This document shows positions 14,195 through 31,689 of a DNA stretch of 64,000 nt, in pieces. Source of the stretch: Acuticoccus sediminis (lineage in GTDB: Bacteria; Pseudomonadota; Alphaproteobacteria; Rhizobiales; Amorphaceae); the NCBI RefSeq assembly GCF_003258595.1, contig NZ_QHHQ01000004.1, positions 310,001-374,000 on the forward strand, written 5' to 3'. Both the position numbers and the translations under genes were made by a program. Each line of letters begins with the position of its first letter. Position 1 is the first letter of the stretch. The notes below the pieces were generated by a model. That model was not told where the DNA came from. It ran no database searches and was given only the letters and a program-made list of their open reading frames with translations.

Positions 14195-15247
14195 TCAGTC
14201 GTTGCGCAGGGTCACCGCGTCGACGACGATCTCGCGCTCGCCGAGGGTCCGCGGGTCGACGAAGACGCCCATCGCCTCGAACATCAGGCGGATGTTGCGC
14301 ATGATCCGTGCCCGGTCGGCCTTGGTCTTGTAGCGGTAGGTCACGCGGGTCAGCGACTCGTCCTCCAGCTCGAGGTTCGAGTAGCAGGACCAGGAGGACA
14401 TGAACTCCTCGATGGCGTTCTTCTGCCGCGCGTCGATCCCCGTGAAGGTCAGCAGGTAGGTCACGGGGAGGTTGTCGCAGCCATAGCCACCCGAGGACGG
14501 GCCGCTCAGCACGGCGCCGTGCGTGGTGCCGCCGTCGATCGCGACGTTCGCGCCCGGCGCGCCGCCGGCGCCGCCGCCGGACGTGTGCAGCGAGCCGTAC
14601 TGCTGGCCGATGATCGAGGCGATCTGGATCGCGATGCGGTTGGCCGCATCCGAGGCCATGCGGCCGAGGTTCTCGGTCACGGCGTCACGCACGCACTGGT
14701 CGTCCGGCGCGATGTCGGCGATCTGGGTGGCGCAGCCCGTCAGCGGGATGCCCTCGGTGTCGAGCTGCACGTTGTCGCCGGCGAGGACGCGGCCGTCACG
14801 GTTGAGGACGCGGTACTGCATCGAGGCGCGCAGCAGCGAGATCTTGGTGTAGGGGTGCGGCACGGCCTTGGCGTAGACGGTGTAGAGGACCACCGCGTCG
14901 ATCGACTGGCCCGGGAAACTGAAGGCCAGCGACAGAAGCTCGGCGTCCTGGCGGCGCTCGCGGTTCGGGTCGTAGCCGAGGCCGCTGTCCACGATGACGG
15001 CCGTCTCGTCGTAAACGTCGAGGCCGTCGAGACCGTATTGCTTCAGGTAGGACCCGATGGCCGGGCCGTTGAGCGCCCCGTTCCACACGTTCAGCATGCC
15101 GCGCTGAACCTGGATGCCGCGGCGCAGGGAGTTCGGATCGGCATCCGACTGCATCACGATGACATCCACCGTCTGAGCAGCAGCGGCCGAGGCGGTGCCG
15201 GCGAGGGCACCCACCGCCATCACGGCGGCAGCAAAGGATTTCAACAT
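14195..15247 (-). CDS. Secreted protein of unknown function, last gene of envelope operon
   Basis: A 350-residue exported protein; the signal peptide runs from MLKSFAAAV to about residue 25 (ASAAAAQ). I do not recognise a family. The mature part mixes alpha/beta-like segments, has a Gly/Ser-rich linker near residues 225-265 and only a few cysteines. ATG 15247 is preceded by a strong GGGGGAAG site, so the longer frame upstream is rejected. It follows the OmpA-domain gene by 29 bases and precedes a hairpin terminator. Context suggests a periplasmic or outer-membrane accessory of the protease/peptidoglycan operon. Confidence 0.75.
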   Translation of the reverse strand: MLKSFAAAVMAVGALAGTASAAAAQTVDVIVMQSDADPNSLRRGIQVQRGMLNVWNGALNGPAIGSYLKQYGLDGLDVYDETAVIVDSGLGYDPNRERRQDAELLSLAFSFPGQSIDAVVLYTVYAKAVPHPYTKISLLRASMQYRVLNRDGRVLAGDNVQLDTEGIPLTGCATQIADIAPDDQCVRDAVTENLGRMASDAANRIAIQIASIIGQQYGSLHTSGGGAGGAPGANVAIDGGTTHGAVLSGPSSGGYGCDNLPVTYLLTFTGIDARQKNAIEEFMSSWSCYSNLELEDESLTRVTYRYKTKADRARIMRNIRLMFEAMGVFVDPRTLGEREIVVDAVTLRND

Positions 15248-15276
15248 TCTAAAACTTCCCCCGTAGACCGATCGGC

Positions 15277-16245
15277 TCAGTTGCCGATGGCGTTGTTCAC
15301 GTCGTCGATGGCGGAGTTCGTGCCGCCCAGTCCGATGGCCTCGTTCCGCTGCGGTGGCACCGGAGCCTGGCCGTATTGGGGCTGGGCGTCGAGGCATTCG
15401 GCCGGCGTCCGACCGGCGCGGAAGTCATCGAGACCCTGCTGGTTGGGACGTGGGTCCGAAAGCTGACCCGTCCGAGTGTCGCAGACCACATTCGTGCTGT
15501 TCTGCTGCGGCACATATTGCGGCGCGACGGGCTGCACGGGCGCGTACTGCTGCGCCGGCGCCGGCTGAACCGGAACCGCCGCCGTCTGCGCGGAAGGCGT
15601 CGCGTCGTAGGACGCTCCGCCGCTCGCCACCGGCGCCGAGCTTTCCGGCTCGATCACGGTGAATTCGACGCGCCGGTTGATCTTGTTGGCGCCGGCGCGC
15701 GGGTCCTTGAGCTCGGTCTCGCCGAACCCGACCGGCTGGAGCCGGTCCGGCGAGATCTTCCAAACGTCAATGAGATAGGCCGTCACCTCGTAGGCCCGGC
15801 GTTCGGACAGCCACTGATTGTAGTCGTCCTTGCCGACGGTGTCGGTGTGCCCGCCGACGAGGAAGAGGTCGTCCCGAAGCTGCTCGGACGAGAGGGCCTC
15901 GCCGAGGATGTCGAGGGTATCGCGGGCCTGACGGGTGAGCTGGAAGGAATCAAATCGGAAATTGATCGTGAAATCCTTGGTGTGGTTGTAGTTCAGAACC
16001 ACGGGAATTTCTTTGATCGCGGCGTTGGTCAGGTAGATGTCCTGATGCGCGATGTCCGGACGGACGTGCAGCGTGCGCGACTTCACGTTCTGACGGTAGG
16101 CCGGCGTGTCCGCAGGGCGACGGTCGAGTTCGTTGATCAGGCTGTTGATCTCGTCTGCCGTTCGCTGTCCCTGCGCCCAGGTCGGCGACACCGACAGGAC
16201 GAGGGCGACAACGCCGGCGCCGATGAAAAGTCTTTTCGATGTCAC
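15277..16245 (-). CDS. OmpA-domain peptidoglycan-binding envelope protein
   Basis: A 322-residue protein with a signal peptide (LFIGAGVVALVLSVSPTWAQ), then an OmpA C-terminal domain at roughly 90-205. In that domain VGGHTDTVG and LSERRA supply the aspartate and arginine that grip diaminopimelate in peptidoglycan. The last third is a Pro/Gln/Ala-rich tail. It starts at GTG 16245, just after GAGGGG and 11 bases downstream of the protease gene. It has no beta-barrel, so it is probably a soluble or tethered periplasmic cell-wall anchor. Its place between a protease and an unknown secreted protein suggests that it positions partners at the wall. Confidence 0.85.
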   Translation of the reverse strand: MTSKRLFIGAGVVALVLSVSPTWAQGQRTADEINSLINELDRRPADTPAYRQNVKSRTLHVRPDIAHQDIYLTNAAIKEIPVVLNYNHTKDFTINFRFDSFQLTRQARDTLDILGEALSSEQLRDDLFLVGGHTDTVGKDDYNQWLSERRAYEVTAYLIDVWKISPDRLQPVGFGETELKDPRAGANKINRRVEFTVIEPESSAPVASGGASYDATPSAQTAAVPVQPAPAQQYAPVQPVAPQYVPQQNSTNVVCDTRTGQLSDPRPNQQGLDDFRAGRTPAECLDAQPQYGQAPVPPQRNEAIGLGGTNSAIDDVNNAIGN

Positions 16246-16256
16246 GGGGTGTCCCC

Positions 16257-17309
16257 TCAATCGTTGGCAAAAGCGTCGGTGATCCGGTTCGATACGTTCG
16301 GGCTCGTGTGTTGTTCGAACGCGCCCGATCCGGCCGGCTGGGCCTGCGTGGCCGTCACCCCCGCTGACGGTTGCGGTGTCGTCAGTTCCTGAAACGCGCT
16401 GTCCTGCGGCGAGCCAGCGGCCGGTGCGGCCGCCCCCACGTTCGGACGGGGCGTCGTCTCGTAAGATGAACTGGAAGGACGAGACGCGACCTGGCTCGCC
16501 GTGCCCGGACGCAAGGTGTCGAGGGCGGCGCGGATGACGCTGGCGCGGGTCGCGAGATTGTAGCTGCCGGCGTCGCTCTTGCTCAGGCCGCCGGTGTGGT
16601 GGAGGCCGACGGGCTGGCGATCGACGTTGACGATCAGCCCTCCGGACGAGCCCGGCAGCGTATCGCAGACGTGGCGCAGCTCGGTCGGCCGCGGCGACGG
16701 GTCCTTGTAGGCGAAGCACTCGTGCACGGTCATCATCTTCGGGCGGCCGGCCGGGTGGTGCAGGATGGTCAGGCGCTCACCGGGCTGGGCGTCGGCGGGC
16801 TCGAAGTCGAGCGGCGTGAGGCCGGCGGGCAGCGGCGCGGTCAGGCGGACCAGCGCGAAGTCCAGCTTGTCGTCGGCCATCACCGGCCGGGTCTCGATGG
16901 GGATCCGCACCGCGTCGGGGTCGTCCTCGTCCTCGTAGCCGAGGAGGATGGAGGCCTGACGGATGTCCTCCCCGAAGCCCGGGATGCAGTGATAGTTGGT
17001 CAGGACGAGGTCGGTCGCGACGATCGTCCCGGTGCAGGTCGACGTCAGCTCGCGCCCGTTGACGCTGATCAGCCGGTCGAGACGGACGACGCGGTCGGAC
17101 ACCTCGCGCAGCTTGTCGTCCGTCCGCAGCCGGCCGACGCGCTGGAAGATGTCCCCGCGCTCGATCACCTGTGAGACGGCCGAGCCCTGGCTTTCACGCA
17201 GACGGAGCGTGACCTGGCCGTAGTCGGACCCTGGAAACGTGCTCGGCTGGGCGAGGGCCGAGGCCGTCCCGATCGCTGCGAAAAATAGCCCAGCAAGACC
17301 CAAGCGCAT
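16257..17309 (-). CDS. Exported trypsin-like serine protease
   Basis: A 350-residue S1-family protease with a signal peptide ending near residue 20 (ASALAQ). The catalytic triad is visible: His in LTNYHCIPG, Asp in KLDFALVRL and Ser in LPGSSGGLIV. Cysteine pairs near TSTCTG/NYHC and HECFAY/RHVCD are likely disulphides. After the protease domain (to about 270) comes a low-complexity Ser/Thr/Pro/Ala tail. There is no PDZ domain, unlike DegP. It is the fifth gene of a seven-gene operon that starts next to an exported caspase, so it could be either a substrate or an executor of the caspases; this is inference. Confidence 0.88.
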   Translation of the reverse strand: MRLGLAGLFFAAIGTASALAQPSTFPGSDYGQVTLRLRESQGSAVSQVIERGDIFQRVGRLRTDDKLREVSDRVVRLDRLISVNGRELTSTCTGTIVATDLVLTNYHCIPGFGEDIRQASILLGYEDEDDPDAVRIPIETRPVMADDKLDFALVRLTAPLPAGLTPLDFEPADAQPGERLTILHHPAGRPKMMTVHECFAYKDPSPRPTELRHVCDTLPGSSGGLIVNVDRQPVGLHHTGGLSKSDAGSYNLATRASVIRAALDTLRPGTASQVASRPSSSSYETTPRPNVGAAAPAAGSPQDSAFQELTTPQPSAGVTATQAQPAGSGAFEQHTSPNVSNRITDAFAND

Positions 17310-17391
17310 GGCAAGCTCGCATCCAAAAATTGTCTGGTCCAGGCCTTAAAGTTGTAGACGAAACGTCGCGGCGCTGGCTAGAGCCCTCAGA

Positions 17392-18885
17392 TCAGGACGC
17401 TTCGACGCGGATCCAAGCGTAGATCTCTGAAATGTTTGTGATCTGCCGAAACTCTTTAGCCAGCGATTCCACCTCGTTCCAGTCCAGGTAGCGCTGCGCT
17501 TTGTGGGCCTCCAGCCAGCGATTCAGCAGCGCATTCGGCGCACGGTTCTTGATGACAAAACAGTGAAACAGAATTGTGCCGGGCGCGAGAAGCTTTTGGT
17601 CCGGCTTGTTGAGGTCATGAGGGATACGGTAAGTCTTGGCGTCGAGGGGCCGGTTCGCCGAACGCTCGGAAAACGGATAGAACACCAGCCCGTTCGCCTC
17701 GTCCTCATCCTGCAGCAGCGCCCAGCAATACGGGAAGACCGGCTGATCGATGGTCAAGTCGATCTCCAAGAGGTCGCCGACCTGGAACGGTGATGCCAGC
17801 GGCGCCATCGTCGACTGGTGGGCCTCGCTCTTGCGCGCGTTGGCGAGGAAGATCTCGAGCCGGTTGTCCCTGCCGGAGGAGGAGGCCGATCCGTCGACGC
17901 ACCGCTTCAGCGCCCCCGGCTGCAGCGCCACGATCCGCGATTCACCCGGCCGGCGCCGCGCCCCGTCCCGCCAGGTGAAGGTGATCACCGCAACGTCGTC
18001 GGCATGCTCCTCGGCGATGCGCACCGAGGTCGTGGCGAGGACCTGCAGGTGCGGCACCGTCTCCGCCTCGTCCGGCGACAGCGGCACGAACGCCCGGCCC
18101 GCCCCGTCCGAGACGGCGATCCCCGTGTTGTCCTGGATCTCGCGCGCGGCGTCGAACAGCTGGCGCGTGAGCTGCTCCGACGAGACGGCGCAGCGCTGTC
18201 CCTCCAGCTTGGAGGTGACCATGAACGGCACGTCCTCCTCCGCCCCCAGGTTGCGCGGGATCGTCGTGCGCAGGCCGTCCCTCAGGGTGGCGTTGATGTC
18301 GTAGATGTCGACCGCCGTCGCCGAGAAGGGCGGCGCCGGGACGCGGTCCAGCGTGTTGGTGTTGAAGTGCCACTGCCGCGTGGCGCTGTCACAGATGCGG
18401 CCGTCCTTCTGGGTGAGCACGATCTCGATCTTCAGCCGCGCGATGTCGAGGTGGTTGCGCACCACCGAGGCGCGCAGCACCGTCTGCGACTCCTCGAAGT
18501 CGGCCACGACGTCGGACGCCGAGGCGCGGTCACGGGCGAAGACGCTGCCCTCGTTGACCGTGCTCGCCACCGCCTCCCCCGACATCAGCACCCAGGTCTT
18601 CGGGATCGCCTGCTTGATGATCTCGTTGAGCTTCTCGCGCACCGGGGCGGACAGGTACGGGTCGCGCTCGGTGATCTCGGAGAAGCGGACGCGCCGATCC
18701 TCCAGCCGCTGCGAGCAGAAATAGAGTGTCGCGTCGTCCTCGTAGAGGCGCAGCAGCCAGTCGGCGATGTCCTCGCGCAGGTCGGCGGTTTCGGCGCGGG
18801 CGGACGACGCGCCGCCGATTGCCCCGCCGACAGCCATCAGGGCTGCCAGTCCGACTGCAGCCACATGCATGACGACGTTGGGCAT
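17392..18885 (-). CDS. Exported DUF4384-like protein
   Basis: A 497-residue protein with a signal peptide ending near ASSARAE. The region around residues 350-430 (FQVGDLLEIDLTIDQPVFPYCW, then VFYPFSE) looks like DUF4384, a beta-rich domain that elsewhere is often fused to bacterial caspase domains. The N-terminal 330 residues are unassigned and contain scattered cysteines. ATG 18885 was chosen over 18909 because GGGAGGTG lies at the right distance. Here the DUF4384-like part is a separate protein, with two caspases encoded nearby, which suggests a split version of the same functional pairing. The family assignment is by eye. Confidence 0.7.
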   Translation of the reverse strand: MPNVVMHVAAVGLAALMAVGGAIGGASSARAETADLREDIADWLLRLYEDDATLYFCSQRLEDRRVRFSEITERDPYLSAPVREKLNEIIKQAIPKTWVLMSGEAVASTVNEGSVFARDRASASDVVADFEESQTVLRASVVRNHLDIARLKIEIVLTQKDGRICDSATRQWHFNTNTLDRVPAPPFSATAVDIYDINATLRDGLRTTIPRNLGAEEDVPFMVTSKLEGQRCAVSSEQLTRQLFDAAREIQDNTGIAVSDGAGRAFVPLSPDEAETVPHLQVLATTSVRIAEEHADDVAVITFTWRDGARRRPGESRIVALQPGALKRCVDGSASSSGRDNRLEIFLANARKSEAHQSTMAPLASPFQVGDLLEIDLTIDQPVFPYCWALLQDEDEANGLVFYPFSERSANRPLDAKTYRIPHDLNKPDQKLLAPGTILFHCFVIKNRAPNALLNRWLEAHKAQRYLDWNEVESLAKEFRQITNISEIYAWIRVEAS

Positions 18886-18923
18886 CGGCACCTCCCACAG
18901 GGCGACCAAGGGTCTCCCTCTAG

Positions 18924-19946
18924 TTAGTAGCGCCTGATGGCCCTCTGTTCACGCACCGTGTCGCTCACGGGTTTCAAGATGCCGAGAGCATCGAGTGCGC
19001 CGAGCGTCACGCCGGGGGGCAGGTGATGGTCCTGCGTGAAGGTGTTCAGCGCCTCGGACCAGCTCTCGCGGAAGTGACCGTCCGCCGGGCCGGGGTGAAG
19101 GTCGGCCCGGATCATCGCCTTCTGCAGCATCGTCCAGTGCCGGGGCGAGAAGAGGTAGGAGATGTCCATCGCGAGCACCGCTTCGCCGTCGCCGGTGCCG
19201 GCGATGGACGCATCCCTGGCGAGGTCGAGCGCGCCCGGCAGGTCCCAGCCGACCCCGAACCCTTCGACCTTGAGGTAGGCGGCGAGCGCCTCGGCGGCGG
19301 GCAGACGGTAGGCGGCGCCGCGCATGGCGATGTCGTAGGCCGCCTCCAGATTGGTGAGGCGGTACTCCATCAGCGCGAGATCGCCGAGCGCGGGGTAGTA
19401 GCCGGCGTCGACGAGCCGGGAGAAGGACTGCCGCGCGGCGATCAGCGTCGAGTAGGTCTCCGGGTCGAGGCGCACCTTGGCGACGGCGGCGAGGTAGCGC
19501 GCGCTCATCCGCTGCGCGGCCGGACCCTTGAGGAGCGACAGGCAGTCGAGCTCGCGCTTGGGATCGGACGGCGCCTTGCACCGGGCGACCTCGCACAGGT
19601 CGCCCGCGCCGTCGCACAGGCCCAGCTCGCTGGCGAGCTTCAGCGCCCGGTCCGGGCTCGGTGCATGCTGCAGCAGCACCCGGACGGCGCCGCGGTGCGC
19701 ATCCGGATCCCACAGCGCGGCGATGCAGTTCGCGGCCGTCCCCAGCGGAAGCTCGGCGACCTGCCGGTCTGACGTGCCGAAGACGTAGCCGAGCGTCCCG
19801 CGCGGCGCCTCGCCGATGCGGGTGCACACGTCCGAGCTCGCCGCCGTGGCCCGGCTCAACGCAACCGTGATCGGTGCCTCGACCGGGCTATGACTGGTCG
19901 CCGGCGCCAGGGCCAGCGCCGCGATCAATGCCAATATCAGGCCCAT
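18924..19946 (-). CDS. Exported protein with peptidoglycan-binding-like C-terminus
   Basis: A 340-residue protein with a short signal peptide (MGLILALIAALALAPATS). The middle is alanine-rich and helical, resembling Sel1/TPR-type repeats (about 110-260). The C-terminal 60 residues, including LQKAMIRADLHPGPADGHF and SEALNTFTQ, resemble the PG_binding_1 repeat (x-AL-x-GxxPGxxDGxFGxxTxxAxxxFQ). The start overlaps the L,D-transpeptidase gene by 59 bases and has GGAG six bases upstream, so the two are coupled. The likely role is docking to the wall beside the transpeptidase. The middle region is unassigned. Confidence 0.7.
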   Translation of the reverse strand: MGLILALIAALALAPATSHSPVEAPITVALSRATAASSDVCTRIGEAPRGTLGYVFGTSDRQVAELPLGTAANCIAALWDPDAHRGAVRVLLQHAPSPDRALKLASELGLCDGAGDLCEVARCKAPSDPKRELDCLSLLKGPAAQRMSARYLAAVAKVRLDPETYSTLIAARQSFSRLVDAGYYPALGDLALMEYRLTNLEAAYDIAMRGAAYRLPAAEALAAYLKVEGFGVGWDLPGALDLARDASIAGTGDGEAVLAMDISYLFSPRHWTMLQKAMIRADLHPGPADGHFRESWSEALNTFTQDHHLPPGVTLGALDALGILKPVSDTVREQRAIRRY

Positions 19947-20562
19947 GCCCTACTCCATACTCGACGACGGGCTCGAAACGGACACGCATACCGTTGCCGA
20001 TACGCTCGAACAGGGACTGCACTTCACTCTCATAAAGCGAGACGCAGCCCCACGTCGCCGCCCGGCCGATCTTGCGTGCATCATTGGTGCCATGGATGAG
20101 GTAGTACTTCCAAGTCAGATTGATGGCGCGCGAGCCGAGCGGGTTGTCTCCGCCGCTCGCGACATATGCCGGGAGGTAGGGGTCGCGCTCCCGCGCCCGC
20201 GGCGTCGGCGACCAGGACGGCTCGACGCGCTTGAAGGTCACCCGCGTGCGGCCGAGCGGGTGGTGCGCCTCCGGCCGGCCGACGGCCACGCGGTAGAGCT
20301 CCACCGTCTCCGGCAGCTCCTCGCTGCGCCAGAAGAGCCGGCGGTTGCGCATGTCCACCACGATGTTCTCCCCCGGCGCGAACACCGGCGCGGCACTGGC
20401 CGGCAGGGTGAGGCGCGACCGCGTCTGGCCGAGGACCATCTCGGTCAACCGCAGCCCGTCCGCCGACGCGGGTGCGGCGGCGGACACGGCAGCAGCGGCC
20501 ATGGCGACCACCAACGCGGCGGTCGGCCCCCTCCCGGCGCGCCCCTTCGCGGCGCGATGCAT
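19888..20562 (-). CDS. L,D-transpeptidase (YkuD family) with variant active-site motif
   Basis: A 224-residue exported YkuD-domain protein (signal to about residue 35). YYLIHGTND supplies the catalytic histidine and TWGCVSLYESEV the nucleophilic cysteine. The usual S-H/S-G-C-I/V-R motif is changed to T-W-G-C-V-S, losing the common arginine. Such enzymes make 3-3 crosslinks or attach proteins to diaminopimelate in peptidoglycan. ATG 20562 has GAGGGG upstream; an ATG at 20586 would add eight residues. It lies 24 bases after the M14-like gene and overlaps the next gene. A different acceptor, or weak activity, is possible given the variant motif. Confidence 0.85.
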   Translation of the reverse strand: MHRAAKGRAGRGPTAALVVAMAAAAVSAAAPASADGLRLTEMVLGQTRSRLTLPASAAPVFAPGENIVVDMRNRRLFWRSEELPETVELYRVAVGRPEAHHPLGRTRVTFKRVEPSWSPTPRARERDPYLPAYVASGGDNPLGSRAINLTWKYYLIHGTNDARKIGRAATWGCVSLYESEVQSLFERIGNGMRVRFEPVVEYGVGHGPDIGIDRGAGPGAGDQS

Positions 20563-20586
20563 CGGGCGGCCCCTCAACGCGGTCAT

Positions 20587-22182
20587 TCAGCCGCCGGCGA
20601 CGGGGCTGTAACCGAGCGTTTCCAGAAACCGGTCGACCATCTCCCGCTGCACCGTCGACCCATGCTCGGCCTCCACGTTGAAATACGGACGACCGTCGTT
20701 CAGGACGACGTGGTTTGAGAAGGAGCAGTCGCTGTTTTTCCGCGTCACATGCTCGTGAACCACGCTGAGACCGGCCTCGTTGAGCTTCTGGCGGATCGCC
20801 GTCGCGTCCCTGTCGTCGGCGATCGGTCTCGGTCCGGCGATGTAGATGAGGTCGTCCGGATCGCCGAAGCGACCGGAGGAGATCGGGTAGCCCTTCTCCT
20901 TGTCGGTCCAGACCCTGGCGGTGATGCCGCCGCCGTTGGTGTTGTTGTGGGCCGAGAAGATGTGCGGCCGGCCGACGAAGAGGCCCATCACGAAGGCGGT
21001 ATAGGTCGGTGTCGCCCGGCGGATGCGGCAGGGCCGCGCGTCCGCGTCGGTGGTGGCGAAGTAGCGGTTGGGGTCGATGCCGCGATAGAAGCGCGTCTCG
21101 TCGCCGGCGACGGCCACCATCCGTCCGCCATAGCGCGCGACGGCGTAGACGGCGGCGTCGAACGCCTCCGCCTCGTTGTCGTGCGGCAGGTACCAGACCG
21201 GTCCGTCCGGATGGTTCCGGTTCTCCACCGACACGAACGTCCACGTGATGGCGCCTTCGGTGAGCCGCACGCGGCCGACGCAGAGCCCTGCCCTTGCGAT
21301 CGCGCCCCGGTTGCGCCGGACGTCCGGGTCGGCGTCGCCCCCGGCGTCGTCGCAGCCGGATGGCGTGGCGACCGCCGCGGCGCCCGGGGCAGCGCTGGCG
21401 GCGGCGGCCTTCAGCGCGGCGCGCACGTCCGGGGCGACGGGGTTGGGTCGCGGCAAGTTGATCGGCGACAGGTCCGGCGTCGCCCCTTCGGGAAAGAACC
21501 CGGCGTCGGCGAGGCTGCGCCGCAGCTCCGGCGGGACCGCCGCCGCGTCGGGCCCGGCAGACCCTGCATCCGCATCGGCCGGGCCGACACCCGCGATCGA
21601 GGCGACCGGCGGCGTCCGCAGGTCCCCCTTCTCGGCCGCCGCTTCCGCCGAGCCCTGCGGCGCGGTCTCGCCCGCCGCTCCCGTGGCGTTTTCCGGCGCA
21701 GCTCCGGCGGCCGCCTCGGCCGCGGGCGCCGGGGCCGGAGGCGCGAAGGGGGATGCGGGATCGAGCGCCGCCGGCTCGTCGGCCTTGCCCATGCGCATCA
21801 CGAAGGCGCGGGCGAACACCTGGTCGTGCATCTCCGACGGGCTCGCCCGAAGCTCCGCCGCGAGGGAGGCGAGATAGGCCATGGGATAGGGACCCGCCTC
21901 GGTGTTGAAGGGCGAGACGTCGATCCGGTAGGCGCCGCGCGCCCGCGCGTCGTTGCCGTAGTCGTCCTCGCCCATCCGGCCGAGCCGCAGCAGCGCGATG
22001 CGCACGTAGCAGGCGAGCTCGCTGTCCGTCGCGACGCCCAGCAGGAGATCGGCGAGCCGAACGTTGTTGGCTTCGGCCCTCACGGTGTTGCAGGCCTCGA
22101 GGTCGAAGGCCGCGGCGCCGGTGGTCGCCGCCGCGACCATCGCCGCCCCCGCGATCGCCGCCGCCCGCAATAAGAGGCGCAT
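20587..22182 (-). CDS. Exported M14-like zinc carboxypeptidase/amidase candidate
   Basis: A 531-residue exported protein (signal to about residue 25), with an N-terminal helical part, a long Ala/Pro-rich linker (about 135-260) and a C-terminal catalytic-looking domain. The latter has H334-D-N-E337 (HxxE), I369-D-P-N-R373, H412 in SAHNNTNGGG, and E504/E506 in FNVEAEHG. The order and type match the M14 metallocarboxypeptidase layout: HxxE, NR, third-ligand His, general-base Glu. The substrate may be peptidoglycan stem peptides, since the next gene is an L,D-transpeptidase. The ATG at 22182 has GGGGAGCG upstream; it is the first gene of the operon. The family assignment is my own reading of motifs and needs profile confirmation. 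Confidence 0.65.
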   Translation of the reverse strand: MRLLLRAAAIAGAAMVAAATTGAAAFDLEACNTVRAEANNVRLADLLLGVATDSELACYVRIALLRLGRMGEDDYGNDARARGAYRIDVSPFNTEAGPYPMAYLASLAAELRASPSEMHDQVFARAFVMRMGKADEPAALDPASPFAPPAPAPAAEAAAGAAPENATGAAGETAPQGSAEAAAEKGDLRTPPVASIAGVGPADADAGSAGPDAAAVPPELRRSLADAGFFPEGATPDLSPINLPRPNPVAPDVRAALKAAAASAAPGAAAVATPSGCDDAGGDADPDVRRNRGAIARAGLCVGRVRLTEGAITWTFVSVENRNHPDGPVWYLPHDNEAEAFDAAVYAVARYGGRMVAVAGDETRFYRGIDPNRYFATTDADARPCRIRRATPTYTAFVMGLFVGRPHIFSAHNNTNGGGITARVWTDKEKGYPISSGRFGDPDDLIYIAGPRPIADDRDATAIRQKLNEAGLSVVHEHVTRKNSDCSFSNHVVLNDGRPYFNVEAEHGSTVQREMVDRFLETLGYSPVAGG

Positions 22183-22371
22183 AGACGCTCCCCGAGCCCC
22201 CTTCACCCATCGGCTGAAACTCTGCGGGGCAGCGCTCGCCGGGGTCAACCCCTGCGCGAGCTTCGCCGGGCAGCTCTCAAATTCAGTCACATTCGCGCGC
22301 GGGCCGGGACACGACGTTAATGTAATGTTAAGATTTGCAGATCCGTCCCCGGGAAGATCCGAGGTATTCCC
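22183..22371. promoter_or_regulatory. Divergent control region between envelope operon and caspase 1
   Basis: This 189-bp gap separates the minus-strand seven-gene operon from the plus-strand caspase gene, so both promoters should be here. The only AT-rich patch is 22316-22335, with a direct repeat TAATGTAATGT followed by TTAAG, about 40-55 bases before the caspase ATG. It could hold its -10 element, but no good -35 was found. No clear promoter was seen for the minus strand. Confidence 0.4.
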
Positions 22372-25077: not shown

Positions 25078-25201
25078 GGAGTTTACGTTACCAAGCGTTT
25101 CCGGCGGTCGAGGGTGGAACGAAACGCCCAGGTTCGGCATCACGTCCTGCGAGTCCCCGCCAATCCTACGACCGACGCCCTTTATTAACCGCGAGTGATT
25201 G

Positions 25202-26692
25202 ATGTCCCGACGGATCCTGCAGGTGGGCTGTGCCGCCATCGTCCTTGCGGCGGCCGTCGCGGCAATTGCGCCGACGGCGGCGCAGAAGCACGTCCCCCTG
25301 CCGCCGGAACAGCCCGCCTCGCGCGGCGGTGAGTTCCTCGCCGCCGAGGCGCCGGCCGCCGGCATCGCCATGCGCCCCCGGATCGGCGCCGGCCCCGGCG
25401 CGCCGGAGATCATCGCATCGCCCCGCCCGGCCGCGACAACGGCTGCCGCGACCGCCCGCCCGCCCCTCACCCCGCTCCCGCTGAAGATCGCCCCGGGCGC
25501 CGACCCGACACCCGGCGCGGCCACGCCGTCCGCCGACGACGCGGATCTGCCGCTCCTCGGTGAGGGCGAGCGCCCGGCCGGGGACGGCGCCCTCGTCACC
25601 GTGGTCCCCCGCGCCAAGCCGGAGCGCCCCGGCCGCCGCCGCTTCCCGTCCTATGTCGCCGGCGAGGGCGACCCGCCGCTCGAGGTGATGGTCGGGCAGA
25701 TGCTCATGGTCGGCTTCCAGGGCGACGACGTCGACCAGCCCGGGCCGCAGCGCATCGCCCGGCACATCGAGGCGGGCCGCCTCGGCGGCGTGATCTTCTT
25801 CCGCCAGAACGTGAAGAGCGAGGCGGCGGTGAAGCGCCTCACCCACCTTTTCCGCGCCTCGGCCCCGCCGGGCCTTCCCGTCCTGATCGCGGTCGACCAG
25901 GAAGGCGGCCACGTGCAGCGGCTCAACACCGAGGTCGGTTTCCCGGACACCCCGTCGGCAAAGCGCGTCGCGGCGCGCGGCGAGGCGGCCGCCAAGCGCA
26001 TCTACACCCGCCTCGCCCGGGACCTCGCGGAGTGGGGGTTCAACGTCAACCTCGCGCCGGTCGTCGACCTCGGCAACCAGCGTGACAACCCGATCATCGC
26101 CAAGCTCGGCCGCGCCTTCTCCGGCGATCCGGCGACCATCGCGTCCTACGCCTCCCTCTTCGTCGAGGCGCACCGCGACGCCGGTGTCCTCACGGCGCTG
26201 AAGCACTTTCCCGGCCACGGCTCCTCGCGCGGCGACACCCACAAGGGCTTCGTCGACGTCTCCTACTCGTGGACCGAGACGGAGCTGACGCCGTACCGCG
26301 ACCTCGTCGCCGAGAACATGGTCGACATGGTGATGGTGGCCCACGTCCACCTCGCCAAATACGGACCCGGCGGGCTGCCGGCTTCCCTGTCCGAGCCGAT
26401 GATCGAGGGGTTGCTGCGCGGCAACATCGGCTTCAACGGCGTGGTGATGTCGGACGACCTCGAGATGGGGGCGATCCGCAAGCTGGGTTCGCCCATCCGC
26501 ATCGCCAAGCAGGCGATCCTGGCGGGCAACGACATCCTCGTCTATGCCGGCGGCGCTGCCGGTCGCGGCGACCTCGTCGGCGAGCTGCAGGCGCGTCTCC
26601 AGGTGGCCGCCCGGGACCCGGTCTTCGCCGCCCGGATCAAGGACAGCTACCACCGCGTCATGACCATGAAGGCCAAGCTCCCCGGCGAGTGA
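25202..26692 (+). CDS. Exported GH3 beta-N-acetylhexosaminidase (NagZ-like)
   Basis: A 496-residue glycoside hydrolase family 3 enzyme. It has a signal-like N-terminus (to about ATAQ at 28) and a Pro/Ala-rich region to about 160, then a GH3 domain with VDQEGGHVQRL, KHFPGHGSSRGDTH (the His-Asp acid/base pair of NagZ-type enzymes) and the nucleophile in VVMSDDLEMGAI. NagZ removes GlcNAc from muropeptides and is normally cytoplasmic in Gram-negative bacteria; the export signal and linker here point to the periplasm or surface. I start at ATG 25202; TTG 25199 is adjacent. It lies 124 bases after the caspase gene on the same strand. Confidence 0.87.
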   Translation: MSRRILQVGCAAIVLAAAVAAIAPTAAQKHVPLPPEQPASRGGEFLAAEAPAAGIAMRPRIGAGPGAPEIIASPRPAATTAAATARPPLTPLPLKIAPGADPTPGAATPSADDADLPLLGEGERPAGDGALVTVVPRAKPERPGRRRFPSYVAGEGDPPLEVMVGQMLMVGFQGDDVDQPGPQRIARHIEAGRLGGVIFFRQNVKSEAAVKRLTHLFRASAPPGLPVLIAVDQEGGHVQRLNTEVGFPDTPSAKRVAARGEAAAKRIYTRLARDLAEWGFNVNLAPVVDLGNQRDNPIIAKLGRAFSGDPATIASYASLFVEAHRDAGVLTALKHFPGHGSSRGDTHKGFVDVSYSWTETELTPYRDLVAENMVDMVMVAHVHLAKYGPGGLPASLSEPMIEGLLRGNIGFNGVVMSDDLEMGAIRKLGSPIRIAKQAILAGNDILVYAGGAAGRGDLVGELQARLQVAARDPVFAARIKDSYHRVMTMKAKLPGE

Positions 26693-26986
26693 CGCGTCCG
26701 ACGCGCCCCCATAAGCCGCAGCGACGACCCGCATCGGAAGAATGGGCGGCAGCCCACATGCCGGCTCGCCGAGCGCCGCCGGATCCCGCCGGTCCTAACG
26801 CCAGCCGAAGCGCCAATGCGCCGGTTCCGACGCGCCGCGAGCGGCCGGCGGAGAGTTTCCTGCCGACCTCGCAGGTCCATCACGCCGAATTTAGCGGCAC
26901 CTGGTTAACTGCGCTCACGAAACCGTGTTGTGCGCCTCCACCCGCGCATCGTCTCGCCCAGGACTGACAGGACTTCTCGAGTCTAC

Positions 26987-27006
26987 TTGACTGCATATGC
27001 GGTCAA
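26987..27006. promoter_or_regulatory. 20-bp near-perfect palindrome, candidate operator
   Basis: TTGACTGCATATGCGGTCAA reads as an inverted repeat with mismatch only at the symmetric pair 6/15 (18 of 20 positions paired). Its left arm also looks like a -35 hexamer (TTGACT), with AT-rich sequence GATTTAAAT about 20 bases on. This is the shape of a dimeric regulator site, for example a LuxR-type box, but the regulator cannot be named. Confidence 0.45.
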
Positions 27007-27061
27007 TTTGGGATTTAAATCAACCAGAGGCATCATTTCCTGTCACAACTCTGGCCGAAAT

Positions 27062-27088
27062 TGTCCAAAAAAACCAATTTCTTGGACA
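27062..27088. repeat. Inverted repeat with A-rich loop
   Basis: TGTCCAA (27062-27068) and TTGGACA (27082-27088) form a perfect 7-bp stem around a 13-base A-rich loop. There is no T-run after it on the plus strand, so it is not a standard terminator. It may be a second protein-binding site or an RNA hairpin in the leader before the RTX gene. Confidence 0.35.
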
Positions 27089-27219
27089 GAAACACGACTG
27101 CGGCGCCGAGAATGTTCTCATCCATAACAACGAGTGATACTCTCTATTTCACGATGTCGTGATAAGGGATCGGCAATCCCGTAATGCACTCCTTTTTTCT
27201 CCAACAGGGAAGAAACAAG

Positions 27220-27244
27220 CCGCAACCTCAGCGCGAAGTTGCGG
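27220..27244. repeat. Inverted repeat in RTX upstream region
   Basis: CCGCAAC (27220-27226) and GTTGCGG (27238-27244) form a perfect 7-bp GC-rich stem with an 11-base loop. No T-tract follows. It lies about 90 bases before the tiny ORF and 220 bases before the RTX start, so a leader-RNA hairpin is possible. Confidence 0.35.
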
Positions 27245-27332
27245 TTCAGGCGCACATCAGTACGCAAGTTGTTTCAACTGTGAAGAACTCAATGCTTGAC
27301 TGAACAAACTCCGTCTCTCAGAAGGAGATCGG

Positions 27333-27395
27333 ATGAGTCCTCGGCAAATGATGCAGCCGTGTATTACGGCAAAGAGCCATAACTCGGCGGTATAG
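27333..27395 (+). CDS. Possible 20-codon leader ORF upstream of RTX gene
   Basis: ATG 27333 follows GAAGGAGATCGG, one of the strongest ribosome sites in the window with good spacing, and is read for 20 codons (MSPRQMMQPCITAKSHNSAV) to TAG. No homologue or motif is recognised, and no codon repeat typical of attenuation leaders is present. It ends 68 bases before the RTX start. It may be a leader peptide, an unrelated small protein, or chance. Confidence 0.3.
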   Translation: MSPRQMMQPCITAKSHNSAV

Positions 27396-27463
27396 TCATT
27401 GGGTTTTCGCCTGTCCGTGGGCAAGTCAATGAATGACGCGAACGATTTAAAAAGGAACGCCGG

Positions 27464-28528
27464 ATGGCTATACGGTTAGGGACGAGCATCGCGGACAAAC
27501 TCGTCGGCACCCCACTTGCGGACTATATTCGCGGCTATGCCGGAGACGACACACTCGTCGGTGACGACGCGGGCGGCGCCGGCAACGACATCATCGTCGG
27601 CGACGAAGGCAACGACATCATCTATGGCGGCGTCGAAGAAGGCGCCGACACCGGCAACGACGTGATGATGGGCGGCGACGGCGACGACTCCATCTTCAGC
27701 TACGGCGGCCGCGACTACATCGACGGCGGCGACGAGCTTCTCGGCGGCGACGGCGACTTCGCGCTGATTGACCGTTCCGACGCATCGAGCGCCCTCACGG
27801 TCTACGGCACCGGCTTCGGCGGGCTCATCCCGGCCGCGCGCTTCAGCCCCTCGAGCGCGGCGGTCATGAGCGACGGCACGATCTTCACCGACATCGAGCG
27901 CCTCGAGCTCATCGCCACCGACTATTCGGACCGGCTCTACCTCGCCAACAACTTCGGCCTCGATGAGACCGAGATCCACGCGGGCGCAGGCGGTGACGTC
28001 GTTCAGACCGGCTCGAGCGTCGACAAGGTCTGGGGCGAGGACGGCAACGACTACATCGGCCTCGGCGCGGGCGACGACACCGCCTACGGTGGCGTGATGA
28101 ACGACACCGTCGACGGCGGCGCCGGCGACGACGTCGTGCGCGGCGGCGATGGCAACGACTCCCTCCTCGGCGGCGATGACAACGACGAGCTGTTCGGCGG
28201 CGACGGCAACGACATCGTCTCGGGCGGCGACGGCGACGACGAGCTGCACGGCGGCGCCGATCAGGACACCTATATCGGCGGCGAGGGCGCGGACTCCTTC
28301 TACCTCGCCTACGGCACGATCGACTTCGACCTGATCGCCGACTACGAGCCGGGCGAGGACACCATCATCGTCAGCTTCGTCGGCATCGAGGAGGAGGACG
28401 TGCTCATCGACGTCCTGAACCCGGCGACCGGCCTGGTCTCCGTCGCGGTCGACGGGATGGAATCGGAGTACTTCTTCGCCGACGGCATCACCAGCTCCGC
28501 CGAGATCGAGACGCAGTTCCTCGTCTGA
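27464..28528 (+). CDS. RTX-type calcium-binding secreted protein
   Basis: A 354-residue, very acidic protein with no N-terminal signal and no cysteines. GGxGxDxxx nonapeptide repeats occur in two blocks: near residues 24-60 (GYAGDD, GGAGND, GDEGND) and about 195-285 (GGDGND, GGDDND, GGDGDD). They fold as a calcium-binding beta-roll. Such proteins normally leave by a type I system using the C-terminal end; no T1SS genes are in the window. No enzymatic domain is recognised in the middle (about 90-180). AAGGA precedes the ATG and a hairpin terminator follows. It could be a surface or matrix component, or a calcium-dependent partner for the envelope proteins around it. Confidence 0.82.
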   Translation: MAIRLGTSIADKLVGTPLADYIRGYAGDDTLVGDDAGGAGNDIIVGDEGNDIIYGGVEEGADTGNDVMMGGDGDDSIFSYGGRDYIDGGDELLGGDGDFALIDRSDASSALTVYGTGFGGLIPAARFSPSSAAVMSDGTIFTDIERLELIATDYSDRLYLANNFGLDETEIHAGAGGDVVQTGSSVDKVWGEDGNDYIGLGAGDDTAYGGVMNDTVDGGAGDDVVRGGDGNDSLLGGDDNDELFGGDGNDIVSGGDGDDELHGGADQDTYIGGEGADSFYLAYGTIDFDLIADYEPGEDTIIVSFVGIEEEDVLIDVLNPATGLVSVAVDGMESEYFFADGITSSAEIETQFLV

Positions 28529-28584
28529 CGCGAACGCGGGGGGCCGCTGCCGGCGCCTCCGCCCACCTCAACCACACGACGGCC

Positions 28585-28613
28585 ACGGCGCTCGCCCCCG
28601 CGAGCGCCGTTTT
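28585..28613 (+). terminator. Rho-independent terminator after RTX gene
   Basis: ACGGCGCTCG (28585-28594) pairs perfectly with CGAGCGCCGT (28601-28610) around a 6-base loop and is followed by TTTT counting the last stem base. It lies 57 bases past the RTX stop and is a clear intrinsic terminator, separating the RTX gene from caspase 2. Confidence 0.8.
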
Positions 28614-28866
28614 CGCGTCGCGCCGCCCGCGCCGCGTCGCCCTCCCGAGGGGCCCGGTGAAGGGCTTCGGTGTGTCATGCGCCAATATCAATTTTAGCGT
28701 GCATTCCCATCCGTCCCCCGGCAAGGTCCTCGCGCCGCCCGCGAGGCACGCCGTGCCGGTCCCGGAAACGCTCCCACATGCCGGCACTCCGGGCGATCCG
28801 CGCGGCGCGGGGCTTACACGAGCGCGCCGGATTCGTCACAATCCGGAGAGGCGTGCGTTGATCGCT

Positions 28867-28895
28867 TTGTCCAGCGCCGGGACAATCACTAGTGT
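28867..28895 (+). promoter_or_regulatory. Weak promoter candidate for caspase 2
   Basis: TTGTCC (28867-28872) and TAGTGT (28890-28895) are 17 bases apart, with four and three consensus matches. They lie about 38 bases before the chosen ATG. This is a visual match only and could be chance. Confidence 0.28.
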
Positions 28896-28932
28896 TATGT
28901 GCACGCGACCGGGTTTTTGGAGCAGAGGGAAC

Positions 28933-31689
28933 ATGGCGAGGATCGTGGCACGGATCGGATGGTCGCTCCGTCTCGCCGTTCTGGCGCTCGTGGCCACTGC
29001 CGCGCTGATCTCGGCGGCCGCCGCCGAGACCGACAAGGAGCGCCTCGAACGACTGATCGCGGAAGGCAACAAGCGCTATGCCCTGCTCGTGGGCATCGGC
29101 GACTATTCCGAGACCGTGCCCGTCAAGTTCGTGCAGGAGAACCTCGACGCGGTGACGCGCCTCCTCACCGAGGACCTCTTCATTCCCGCCGCCAACATCG
29201 TGCGGATCGAAAATCCCGACAACATCTCCCTCGCCGGCACCTTCGGGTACGACAAGGGCGAGCTGGGCGACTTCGGCGGCCTCGACATCACCCATCCGGA
29301 CGCCGAGCTCTTCGTCTATTATGTCGGTCACGGCTCGCGCGACCTGCGCGGCTCGAACACGACCAACGCGGCCGAGTCGGAAGGATACCTCCTCGCCACC
29401 AACTCGCGCCCCGCGCTCCTCTCCCGCACGGCCTACTCGTACGACACGCTGCTGGCGAACCTCGACGCCTACCAGAAGCGCAATTTCCCCGACGGCCGCG
29501 TTGTTCTCTTCATGGAGAGCTGCTTCTCGGGCGAGACCAACGACGGCGTGGCGCTCAACCCGTCGATGGCCGCCGCGCTGCTGGCGCCGACCGAGGGCTG
29601 GGACGAGCCGCAGAGCGAGCACGACGTCATCGCCATCGCCGCGGCCGGGGCCGACACCCCGGCCTACTGGGACGAGGAGCGGCACATCGGCCTCTTCACC
29701 GACGCCCTCGTCGCCGGTCTCTCCGGCCGTGCCGACAGCGAGGGGGGCGACGGCAACGGCACGATCACCGTCGCCGAGCTCGGCGACTTCCTGCGCCAGT
29801 CGGTCTCCGCCCGCGCCCGCACCCTCGGCAAGGGCGACCAGCGCCCCCAGGTGCAGGAGCAGGACCTCGAGAAGACCCTCGCCAACCTCGCCCGCACGCC
29901 GCAGCCCACCGCCTCGCCGCTGATCGAATTCGAGGTGAAGGACCTCGAGGCGCGCCTCGCCGAGATCGACCCCCGCAACCTTCCCGGCCTCAAGCGCCTG
30001 TCGCGCGACGTCGAGGCGTTCCGCAACAGCTGCGGCGACGACTGCCGGAGCTACCTCGCACGGCTCATCCTCCTGCAGGACGACCTGCGGCGGCAGGTGG
30101 ACCTGTGCGACGCGGCCGCCACCATGTCCGGCCGCTGGCAGGAGCGCGGCGCCTTCAACCGCCTGGCCGAGTTCGACCAGATCTGCGCGCCGCCCGACAT
30201 GGTGGACGCGTGCGTCGCCTCCCGCGACCTCTCCTCCAAGGCCTGCCAGTGCCTGCGCGACCCGGAGGACGAGAGCTGCCAGATCGATCCGGCGCAGATC
30301 TGCGCCGACGGGCTGACGTCGGCGACCGAGGCGGGCGTCGCGCAGACGAGCCTCGACCCGCTCCTCCAGTTCCAGCGCCTCCAGCGCAACTGCGCGCGCG
30401 ACACCGAGGCGCTCGCCGCCGCCCGGGAGACGGTCTGCGCCGCCGCCGAGAAGGGCTTCGACGCCAACGGACCGATCGCGCCGGGCATCGCCGCCTGCCC
30501 CTTCGCCAAGACGATCGCGACCCAGCGGCGCGAGGCGGAACGCTGCCGCAGCGAGTTCGCCGCCGTCGAGGCGCAGTCCGGCGACCACACCCGCCTCGCC
30601 AACTTCATCGCCGAATACCCCAACTGCGGGCAGATCTCCGACGCGCGGGTGCTCCTCGACCGCCGGATCGCCGATGCGCTCGGCAAGGCGGACACCGCCA
30701 GGACCCCGGCCGACCGCAAGCGCGTCCACGGCGACCTCACCGCGATCCGCAACGCCTTCGAAGGCTCGCTGTCGCGCGCCGCCCTCGCCTCGATCGACGA
30801 CGCGATCTCGGCGCTCGACGAGACCGCCTGCCCCGTCGCGCTGCGCAGCGCCAAGGAGAAGGGCCTTGCAGCGCTCAGCCAGTTCGTGCGCGAGCGGCCG
30901 AACTGCGAGGCCGAGATCGCCGAGGCGCAGAAGCTCGTCGCCACCGGCGAGTGCCGGGCCCAGTTCGAGCGCGTGTCGGGCGACGACGCCACCCAGCTCA
31001 TCGCCTTCACCGAGCGCAACCGGAGCTGCGAGGCGGAGGTGGCGAACGCCAACGCCCGGCTCGAGACGCTGGCGACCCAGTGCATCCACCGCGCCGGCGA
31101 GTACGAACGCGCCGAGCCGCGCGAGGCGATCCGACGCTATCGCGCCTGCAGCTCCACCTTCGGCGGAACGTTCGACTGGGTGGGCACGCAGGCGAGCAGC
31201 AGCCTCGCCCGCCTCAACCGGACGATCGTCTGCGCCGACGCCTTCGACGCCATGCCGCACGACGACGCCGACGCGCTGATCGCCTTCATCGGCCGCTTCA
31301 AGGCGCAGTGTCCGAGCTACACCGAGGAGGCGGCCCGTCTCTACGCGGCCCTCCCCGCCGCGGTCCCGGACGTGACGCAGTTCGACGGCATCTACACCGG
31401 CCAGCGCGGCTACACGGAGCCGGGCCGCAAGAGCCCCGACCGTTCCTGCCTCGACCGGTACGAGTTCACCGCGACCGTCGAGAACGGCGAGATCCGCTTC
31501 GATAGCGACGACCGCTCCTGGACCGGAAGCGTCGGCGCGGACGGGGCGATCCGCATCACCCGCGAGGGGATCAGCCCGCGGACCAAGTCGGAGATGTGGA
31601 TCTCCGGCAGCCTGTCGGGCGCCTACGCGCGCGGCGAGATGTTCTCCGGCTACTGCGGAACGGGCTACTTCGAGCTGTCACGCCGCTGA
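28933..31689 (+). CDS. Second exported caspase-family (C14) protease
   Basis: A 918-residue paralogue of the caspase at 22372. The signal peptide ends near residue 35 (SAAAAET) and the p20 domain spans about 45-310, with dyad H133 (VGHGSRD) and C197 (MESCFSGE), again 64 residues apart. The cysteine-rich helical middle is collinear with caspase 1 (shared CQC/CTC blocks, then an ACPFA segment). The C-terminus differs: no PAN-like part, but a 90-residue beta-rich domain starting FDGIYTGQRGY and ending GYCGTGYFELS. ATG 28933 follows AGAGGGA; an upstream ATG at 28897 lacks such a site. It was probably formed by local duplication followed by exchange of the targeting domain. Confidence 0.88.
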   Translation: MARIVARIGWSLRLAVLALVATAALISAAAAETDKERLERLIAEGNKRYALLVGIGDYSETVPVKFVQENLDAVTRLLTEDLFIPAANIVRIENPDNISLAGTFGYDKGELGDFGGLDITHPDAELFVYYVGHGSRDLRGSNTTNAAESEGYLLATNSRPALLSRTAYSYDTLLANLDAYQKRNFPDGRVVLFMESCFSGETNDGVALNPSMAAALLAPTEGWDEPQSEHDVIAIAAAGADTPAYWDEERHIGLFTDALVAGLSGRADSEGGDGNGTITVAELGDFLRQSVSARARTLGKGDQRPQVQEQDLEKTLANLARTPQPTASPLIEFEVKDLEARLAEIDPRNLPGLKRLSRDVEAFRNSCGDDCRSYLARLILLQDDLRRQVDLCDAAATMSGRWQERGAFNRLAEFDQICAPPDMVDACVASRDLSSKACQCLRDPEDESCQIDPAQICADGLTSATEAGVAQTSLDPLLQFQRLQRNCARDTEALAAARETVCAAAEKGFDANGPIAPGIAACPFAKTIATQRREAERCRSEFAAVEAQSGDHTRLANFIAEYPNCGQISDARVLLDRRIADALGKADTARTPADRKRVHGDLTAIRNAFEGSLSRAALASIDDAISALDETACPVALRSAKEKGLAALSQFVRERPNCEAEIAEAQKLVATGECRAQFERVSGDDATQLIAFTERNRSCEAEVANANARLETLATQCIHRAGEYERAEPREAIRRYRACSSTFGGTFDWVGTQASSSLARLNRTIVCADAFDAMPHDDADALIAFIGRFKAQCPSYTEEAARLYAALPAAVPDVTQFDGIYTGQRGYTEPGRKSPDRSCLDRYEFTATVENGEIRFDSDDRSWTGSVGADGAIRITREGISPRTKSEMWISGSLSGAYARGEMFSGYCGTGYFELSRR

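Follow-up and report, generated by a model that had tools for sequence, protein, structure and literature searches.

We analysed eleven consecutive genes of Acuticoccus sediminis at positions 14195-31689 of the window, a stretch of 64,000 nucleotides (G000:C4:310001-374000) from a 7.76-Mb genome in 44 contigs (G000), in which two caspases lie next to a trypsin-like protease, an OmpA C-terminal-domain protein, a protein referred to as g1 and several putative cell wall enzymes (Table 1). An earlier note on this DNA had described the genes as a candidate envelope system, in which exported caspases are linked to a protease and peptidoglycan-remodelling operon. All eleven open reading frames were confirmed. 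The ten export signals that had been claimed were found as strongly hydrophobic N-terminal segments in 10 of the 11 proteins (all but the RTX repeat protein), the calls coming from a basic hydropathy script that used a permissive cleavage pattern, not from SignalP; two of the ten, the DUF4384-like and the PG-binding-like protein, have no K or R ahead of the hydrophobic segment. The seven minus-strand genes are spaced from a 59 bp overlap to an 82 bp gap, which is consistent with one transcription unit, as proposed before, and the first of them starts 189 bp from the divergent caspase 1 gene. Pfam matches above cut-off were obtained in the window for OmpA, Trypsin_2, YkuD and Glyco_hydro_3, and for both Peptidase_C14 and PAN_4 in caspase 1.

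Table 1. Genes of the caspase locus in the window, with their proposed roles.
Gene product	Position	Strand	Features and proposed role	Basis
g1	14195..15247	-	predicted exported 350-aa protein, two domains; system member	fold model and synteny
OmpA C-terminal-domain protein	15277..16245	-	predicted exported, GTG start; system member	Pfam OmpA 3.3e-17
Trypsin-like serine protease	16257..17309	-	predicted exported, triad H107-D150-S222; system member	Pfam Trypsin_2 1.4e-16
DUF4384-like protein	17392..18885	-	predicted exported; system member	Pfam scores of relatives
PG-binding-like protein	18924..19946	-	predicted exported; genus-level neighbour, also in G003 and G004	weak PG_binding_1
YkuD L,D-transpeptidase	19888..20562	-	predicted exported	Pfam YkuD 1.1e-15
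M14-like protein	20587..22182	-	predicted exported; genus backbone, present without caspases	motifs
Caspase 1	22372..25077	+	predicted signal peptide, C14 40-301, H125/C189, PAN; system member	Pfam
NagZ-like GH3 enzyme	25199..26692	+	predicted exported, TTG start or ATG at 25202; genus backbone	Pfam GH3 5.2e-58
RTX repeat protein	27464..28528	+	no N-terminal signal; same place in G002 and G004	repeats by eye
Caspase 2	28933..31689	+	tandem paralogue of caspase 1, predicted signal peptide, dyad kept; system member	homology

Caspase 1 combines a caspase domain (Pfam C14, 1.9e-6) with a C-terminal PAN domain (PAN_4, 1.5e-8). Caspase 2 gave no Pfam match at E<=0.1; it shares 44% identity with caspase 1 across query residues 8-719, and its C-terminal domain is unlike that of caspase 1. 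The His/Cys dyad is retained in all 26 aligned caspase copies, including both window caspases, which by sequence have the His-Cys dyad in a p20-like domain expected of peptidase C14 (caspase 2 by homology). Both score below the cut-off of the NCBIfam model for EACC1-associated caspases (58.1 and 50.9 bits vs 140). An EF-hand-like loop is present in the caspase domain of both proteins and, by a strict pattern, in 15 of the 29 members of the subfamily, these two included, and 28 of the 29 have a hydrophobic N-terminal segment. The limit of this subfamily (E<1e-50) was set post hoc, after the list had been viewed, and lies in a gap of the best values per genome from 6.1e-60 to 2.5e-35.

The caspase of G558 (L227:16966-19059; G and L denote genomes and loci) ends in Sel1 repeats plus a sub-threshold PG_binding_1 match, and the caspase adjoining OmpA-g1 in G474 (L225:10399-12162) is fused to an FGE-sulfatase domain (Pfam). 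A tandem caspase pair in G047 adjoins a gene whose product has a TIR domain fused to the zinc-finger and C-terminal domains of DnaJ (Pfam; L036:13138-14274). The PAN domain of caspase 1 is also found in open frames of about 1,800 aa in many genomes of the order (L003, L023, L031), which we suppose may be alpha-2-macroglobulin-like. Two proteins with hydrophobic N-termini, encoded at L066:14448-16274 (G047) and L067:14282-14989 (G045), have ends that resemble the C-terminus of caspase 2 (41% and 31% identity, respectively) and lie directly upstream of an M14-like gene, possibly reflecting an older link between this domain and M14.

The H-D-S triad of the trypsin-like protease is kept in 11 of 11 complete copies and in one truncated copy. 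The label DUF4384-like is used only because the window protein misses the gathering score of Pfam DUF4384, to which it gave no match; among its relatives, those of G003 and G026 are below this cut-off and that of G253 is above it (61.7 vs 27). In Jiella, Aurantimonas and Fulvimarina, a caspase follows the N-terminal half of the family within one protein, as seen in 7/7 complete fused proteins (clean profile). The name caspase-DUF4384 fusion was ruled out for these proteins, as the fused part is the N-terminal half and Pfam DUF4384 is absent in the L096 fused protein.

No Pfam or NCBIfam match was found for g1. A model of the protein (AlphaFold2, 31 sequences, pLDDT 76.9) contains two domains, domain 1 at about residues 24-218 and domain 2, a small alpha/beta domain, at about residues 259-350. 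The fold neighbours of domain 1 are HpaA (Z 10.7), the PqiC-like XCC0632 (9.9), PelC (9.6) and CsgG (9.2), with a root-mean-square deviation of 3.1-4.2, and Foldseek alone gave E values of about 1e-3, none lower. The model thus predicts for domain 1 the outer-membrane-lipoprotein fold of the HpaA, PqiC-like, PelC and CsgG type. Compared with the lipoproteins that share this fold [HpaA, PqiC-like (DUF330), PelC, CsgG and LptE], g1 has a second domain and no sequence match, and no lipobox cysteine was seen by eye in the window copy, whose signal ends in AAAAQ; a lipobox-like ISCA is present in relatives such as those of L173 and L088. L22e-like matches of domain 2 were taken as a common arrangement. 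Searches of PDB sequences with the g1, cl1 (see below) and M14 profiles gave no useful match.

Because g1 is rare (7/385 genomes of the class with a strict profile), it was chosen as marker for synteny beyond the genus. A scan of the contigs of named genomes with caspase 1 alone found no relative, and a scan of named genomes with the g1 alignment gave 37 loci. These include six loci of Jiella, one of Aurantimonas, two metagenome-assembled genome (MAG) contigs of Fulvimarina, Actibacterium, two of Terasakiella, Rhodospirillaceae and other alphaproteobacterial MAGs, and a few carry the titles Gammaproteobacteria, Hahellaceae or Moraxellaceae. Together with four others and the window this makes 42 loci, of which L094 and L095 come from one Fulvimarina MAG; ten further loci came from a search of the order. 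Several loci are cut by contig ends, and the gene calls in the relatives were made with a simple gene finder, so that starts are approximate.

Beside g1, the 42 loci contain a caspase in 20, an OmpA protein in 26, a trypsin in 12 and an SLT lytic transglycosylase in 12, and members of three further families, referred to as cl1, cl4 and cl2, in 26, 23 and 23, respectively. The corresponding numbers for the ten further loci are five (caspase), ten (OmpA), three (trypsin) and six (cl1), and the OmpA counts (26/42 and 10/10) were unchanged with a domain-only query. DUF4384-like genes, sought with the clean profile, lie beside g1 in 21 of the 42 loci (seven fused, L118 weak) and in 6 of the 10 (L231 weak). 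A subtilase, sought by the S8 domain alone, is found in 14/42 and 0/10, and a TolQ-like gene in 3/42. The order trypsin-OmpA-g1 is kept in 15/15 g1 loci with a trypsin. The fullest form is an operon in G558 and G579, consisting of caspase, DUF4384-like, cl1, cl4, cl2, trypsin, OmpA and g1. Of the nine loci from Jiella, Aurantimonas and Fulvimarina, eight (one Fulvimarina contig among them) have the same order, with a fourth family (cl9) and a fused caspase; the ninth shows the trypsin-OmpA-g1 end only. Co-occurrence and gene order thus hold across alphaproteobacterial families and orders, and g1 with cl1-cl4-cl2 is found in Gammaproteobacteria as well.

The enzyme next to the core varies among lineages. 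The window has a trypsin, G340 an OmpA-subtilase fusion, G026 an animal-haem-peroxidase-like protein, G281 a di-haem oxidoreductase, G253 lytic transglycosylases and G474 a caspase-FGE fusion. An operon of G438 (L173:3582-16937) encodes a caspase, a DUF4384-like protein, g1, a small membrane protein, SLT, cl1, cl4 and cl2, and continues with a lipoprotein (by eye), two further genes and a TolQ-like gene. The gammaproteobacterial locus L122:1589-15663 contains cl1-cl4-cl2, SLT, g1, a Ser/Thr kinase-FGE protein (Pfam), a TolQ-like protein and a longer protein resembling g1, which has no Pfam match but an FHA-like part as judged by eye; the L122 stretch examined showed no caspase.

Membership of the window genes in this system would imply that cl1 and cl2 lie somewhere else in the genome. 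This prediction was confirmed: G000:C8:150639-154182 encodes cl1, cl4, cl2 and cl9, followed by another OmpA protein. In all, four genomes with both g1 and a caspase were searched for cl1 and cl2, and all four have them, G000, G003 and G047 at a second locus and G026 together with the rest of the set (the profiles were built without the copies of G000, G003 and G047 and with those of G026). The system is split in the window genome, with cl1-cl4-cl2 on another contig. In G005, cl1-cl4-cl2-cl9 is found at another locus, with a trypsin-family gene close by.

Among 385 genomes of the class, g1 occurs in 7, cl1 in 19 and both in 7 (Fisher 2e-10; by genus 5/5, p 1.5e-7), and among 317 genomes of the order g1 occurs in 14, cl1 in 14 and both in 11 (Fisher 2e-15; by genus 8/10, p 1.6e-9); all these p values are inflated by relatedness, as the genomes are not independent. 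Four of the seven class genomes with both g1 and cl1 had contributed rows to the cl1 profile, and the genome searches scored first-look candidates only. cl1 is present in seven of the ten g1 genomes that were new in the order search; in G474 it lies on another contig. A caspase match at 1e-8 is present in 61/385 class genomes, of which 14 have the high-scoring subfamily; cl1 is found in 11 of these 14 vs 3 of the 47 other caspase genomes.

The Pfam cut-off was reached by none of 31 g1, 13 cl1, 12 cl2, two cl4 and one cl9 proteins, and the NCBIfam cut-off by none of one to three members each of g1, cl1, cl4, cl2 and cl9. The cl1 model (pLDDT 81.7) is all-helical save a few short strands, with no export signal by eye; a fold search gave no convincing match, which does not show a new fold. 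In cl2 there is one membrane segment by eye, and S108 and K155, 47 residues apart, are invariant. A Lon-like Ser/Lys reading of cl2 is weak: the comparison with the Lon of the same genome by HHalign gave P 0.005 at a probability of 7% (unrelated control P 0.38), the match to Lon in PDB had E 0.14, and no Pfam Lon match was found in 12 members.

To separate the caspase set from its neighbours, the locus was compared within the genus. G003 has the whole window set except RTX, adjoining atpI, in the order caspase 2, GH3, caspase 1 and, divergent from these, M14, YkuD, PG-binding, DUF4384-like, trypsin, OmpA and g1. Six genomes of the genus are without caspases. At this locus they have the M14-like gene in 6/6, GH3 in 4/6, RTX in 2/6 and PG-binding in 1/6, and their locus stretches gave no match for caspase, DUF4384-like, trypsin, OmpA or g1; genome-wide, caspase 1 matched to its PAN region only and g1 gave no match. 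Of the eight genus members, G000 and G003 alone were found to have a complete YkuD gene at this locus. M14-like and GH3 are genus backbone, RTX less strictly so, and the wall enzymes of the window are mostly old neighbours. In the set of 42 loci, M14, YkuD, PG-binding and GH3 adjoin g1 in the window and G003 only and RTX in the window only, and M14 was beside g1 in 0/10 of the further loci (YkuD, PG-binding, GH3 and RTX were not sought there). The synteny of caspases with the M14-like and YkuD genes, which had been proposed as a check of the envelope system, was thus found in the window and G003 only. What stands of that proposal is the synteny of the caspase with trypsin, OmpA, DUF4384-like and g1 far outside the genus; its peptidoglycan-remodelling half is not supported.

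In the M14-like protein, HDxE, DxNRxF and a later H and E are invariant in 13/13 aligned relatives (the G006 copy, which has a stop codon, was left out of the alignment), and no Pfam or PDB sequence match was found; HxxE, DxNR and the later H and E are what we take to be M14 carboxypeptidase motifs. The window PG-binding-like protein matches PG_binding_1 below cut-off (E 0.017). The GH3 domain of the GH3 enzyme is above cut-off, and the protein is below that of the NCBIfam beta-N-acetylhexosaminidase model (171.8 bits vs 207). NagZ is usually cytoplasmic; in several genomes of the genus, a NagZ-like GH3 enzyme that carries a predicted export signal at its N-terminus is encoded near ATP synthase genes. 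In other lineages, links to the wall consist of SLT in the 12 g1 loci given above and of sub-threshold PG_binding_1 matches at the ends of caspases in G026, G047 and G558.

Taken together, we consider the set of caspase, trypsin, OmpA, g1 and DUF4384-like protein a real and conserved, apparently undescribed envelope system. Our preferred reading, to which we give a probability of about 0.55, is that these window genes form the envelope half of this system, in which an exported caspase-trypsin relay sits on a scaffold of outer membrane and wall and has a cytoplasmic partner. The gene linkage is well supported; for the mechanism we infer the following. OmpA would anchor the complex to peptidoglycan, and g1 would be at the outer membrane. 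The DUF4384-like protein may hold the caspase or sense for it, since some genera have the caspase fused to the N-terminal half of this family. Trypsin and caspase would form a periplasmic proteolytic relay that is silent in the cytoplasm and switched on outside, perhaps by Ca2+ plus trypsin cleavage. cl2, cl4 and cl1 could relay its state to the cytoplasm or load the relay, and the likely output would be limited proteolysis of envelope proteins upon envelope damage or a change in growth. More tentatively, and with somewhat less than even confidence, we propose a bacterial extracytoplasmic caspase relay: exported, possibly Ca2+-dependent caspases in a periplasmic cascade with trypsin on an OmpA/PelC-like scaffold, controlled by cl1 from the cytoplasm, in Alphaproteobacteria and with gammaproteobacterial relatives in which no caspase was found nearby.

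Several observations weigh against the preferred reading. A caspase is beside g1 in 25/52 loci and is not obligatory; in two of these it is represented by low-scoring members of other subfamilies only (that of L108 is a clear Pfam caspase of a different subfamily, and both L223 caspases are low-scoring too). G448, G483 and G680 have OmpA-g1-cl1-cl4-cl2 with no caspase within the 20-kb stretch, and five class genomes have cl1 and no caspase match at 1e-8. g1 occurs without cl1 in G035, G549 and G681, and cl1 without g1 in G005, G514 and G551. In the window genus, g1 is found in 2/8 genomes (G000 and G003) only. The limits of the co-occurrence tests given above count here as well, as does the prediction of export by a hydropathy script, and the mutual action of trypsin and caspase is hypothetical.

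The main rival explanation is a machine for assembly or secretion across the envelope. Here g1 would be located at the outer membrane and OmpA at the wall, some lineages would add a TolQ-like motor and a lytic transglycosylase, and caspase and trypsin would process the cargo of the machine. The likeness of the g1 fold to PelC and CsgG agrees with such a machine, as do SLT in 12/42 and TolQ-like genes in 3/42 g1 loci, the G438 operon, which joins g1, SLT and a TolQ-like gene to caspase, DUF4384-like and cl1-cl4-cl2, and the kinase-FGE protein of the gammaproteobacterial locus. However, we recognised neither an ATPase nor a secretin nor an obvious cargo gene in the loci examined, profiles for SLT and TolQ-like proteins found nothing at the second locus of the window genome, and the TolQ reading itself is weak (ZorA profile, E 4.8e-4). 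We regard this machine as unlikely, at roughly one chance in four. The comparison with Tol-Pal and Zorya-type motors, which have peptidoglycan-binding parts, runs along the same lines: OmpA is common to them and to the present set, and TolQ-like proteins and lytic transglycosylases occur in some lineages, whereas no motor gene was found at the second locus of the window genome, the TolQ-like match is weak and many sets contain proteases. A search of the open-access literature for an operon of caspase, TolQ and lytic transglycosylase found no report.

We think it improbable that the set serves in conflict or altruistic death, in which envelope damage would turn on caspase and trypsin and so destroy the envelope of an infected or damaged cell. 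Caspase, trypsin and OmpA domains are found in NTP-dependent conflict systems that have been described (eLife 2020, PMC7159879), the set is patchy in the window genus (2/8), and the enzymes next to the core are interchangeable. On the other hand, PADLOC gave no match for single members of g1, DUF4384-like, cl1 and cl2 (and only weak caspase, protease and ZorA matches elsewhere in the set), no NTPase or vWA partner was recognised, and the operon is kept in 8/9 Jiella, Aurantimonas and Fulvimarina loci, suggesting stable inheritance. Very unlikely is the unit as written in the earlier note, in which exported caspases would control the wall enzymes encoded next to them (M14-like, YkuD and GH3). 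Caspases and wall enzymes are all exported according to the script and adjacent in G000 and G003, YkuD is whole at the locus only in these two caspase genomes of the genus, and in G047 and G045 the gene directly upstream of M14-like encodes a protein with a hydrophobic N-terminus that ends in a caspase-2-like C-terminal domain; but M14, GH3, RTX and PG-binding persist in genomes of the genus without caspases, and wall genes adjoin g1 in 2/42 loci only. That these are loose neighbours, independent envelope genes clustered by chance or shared transfer, is hardly credible: gene content does vary among lineages, but trypsin-OmpA-g1 has a constant order (15/15) and cl1-cl4-cl2 a single order in mapped loci, genome profiles match, genes are fused, and the prediction of cl1 and cl2 on other contigs was confirmed.

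The earlier statement that no system of this make-up has been described agrees with our search of the open-access literature (supplements excluded), in which none was found; among the matches listed for exported or periplasmic caspases, no title concerned the bacteria's own caspases. The closest system in the parts of the eLife 2020 paper covered here (PMC7159879), which describes EACC1-caspase and OmpA-bearing iSTAND systems, is the two-gene EACC1-caspase membrane conflict system. There, too, the caspase is the constant component, with variable domains, near the membrane. The window caspases differ in being below the model cut-off and having predicted signal peptides, and in their company of OmpA, trypsin and g1; no EACC1 single-transmembrane gene was recognised beside them (the EACC1 profile itself was not searched). 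In metacaspases, 14/217 operons contain OmpA, 98/671 sequences are assigned to a membrane class and mostly carry a helix at the N-terminus, possibly a signal peptide, and a protease/protease-inhibition operon occurs in four Rhizobium strains, according to the portions consulted of Asplund-Samuelsson et al. (2012; PMC3501461). The OmpA-containing operons and the Rhizobium operon may partly overlap the present set; neither this gene set nor an envelope system is described in those portions. The same holds for a 2020 review and a 2016 survey, in the parts consulted, which do not describe the present system.

Discussion of bacterial caspases has centred mostly on intracellular proteases of cell death or immunity. 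If the preferred reading is true, caspases would gain a role outside the cytoplasm, linked with a trypsin, an anchor in the wall and a protein of outer-membrane type, and this would account for part of the large alphaproteobacterial stock of caspases. Four families (g1, cl1, cl4 and cl2) whose scanned members match neither Pfam nor NCBIfam are now defined, and Jiella, Aurantimonas and Actibacterium provide named isolates among the genomes with g1 loci. Elsewhere in the window, a penicillin-binding transpeptidase-domain protein (Pfam) is encoded at 9900-10754, flanked by one gene resembling that of an RNA methyltransferase and another resembling guaB; it has STFK, YGN and KTG motifs, as do class D beta-lactamases.

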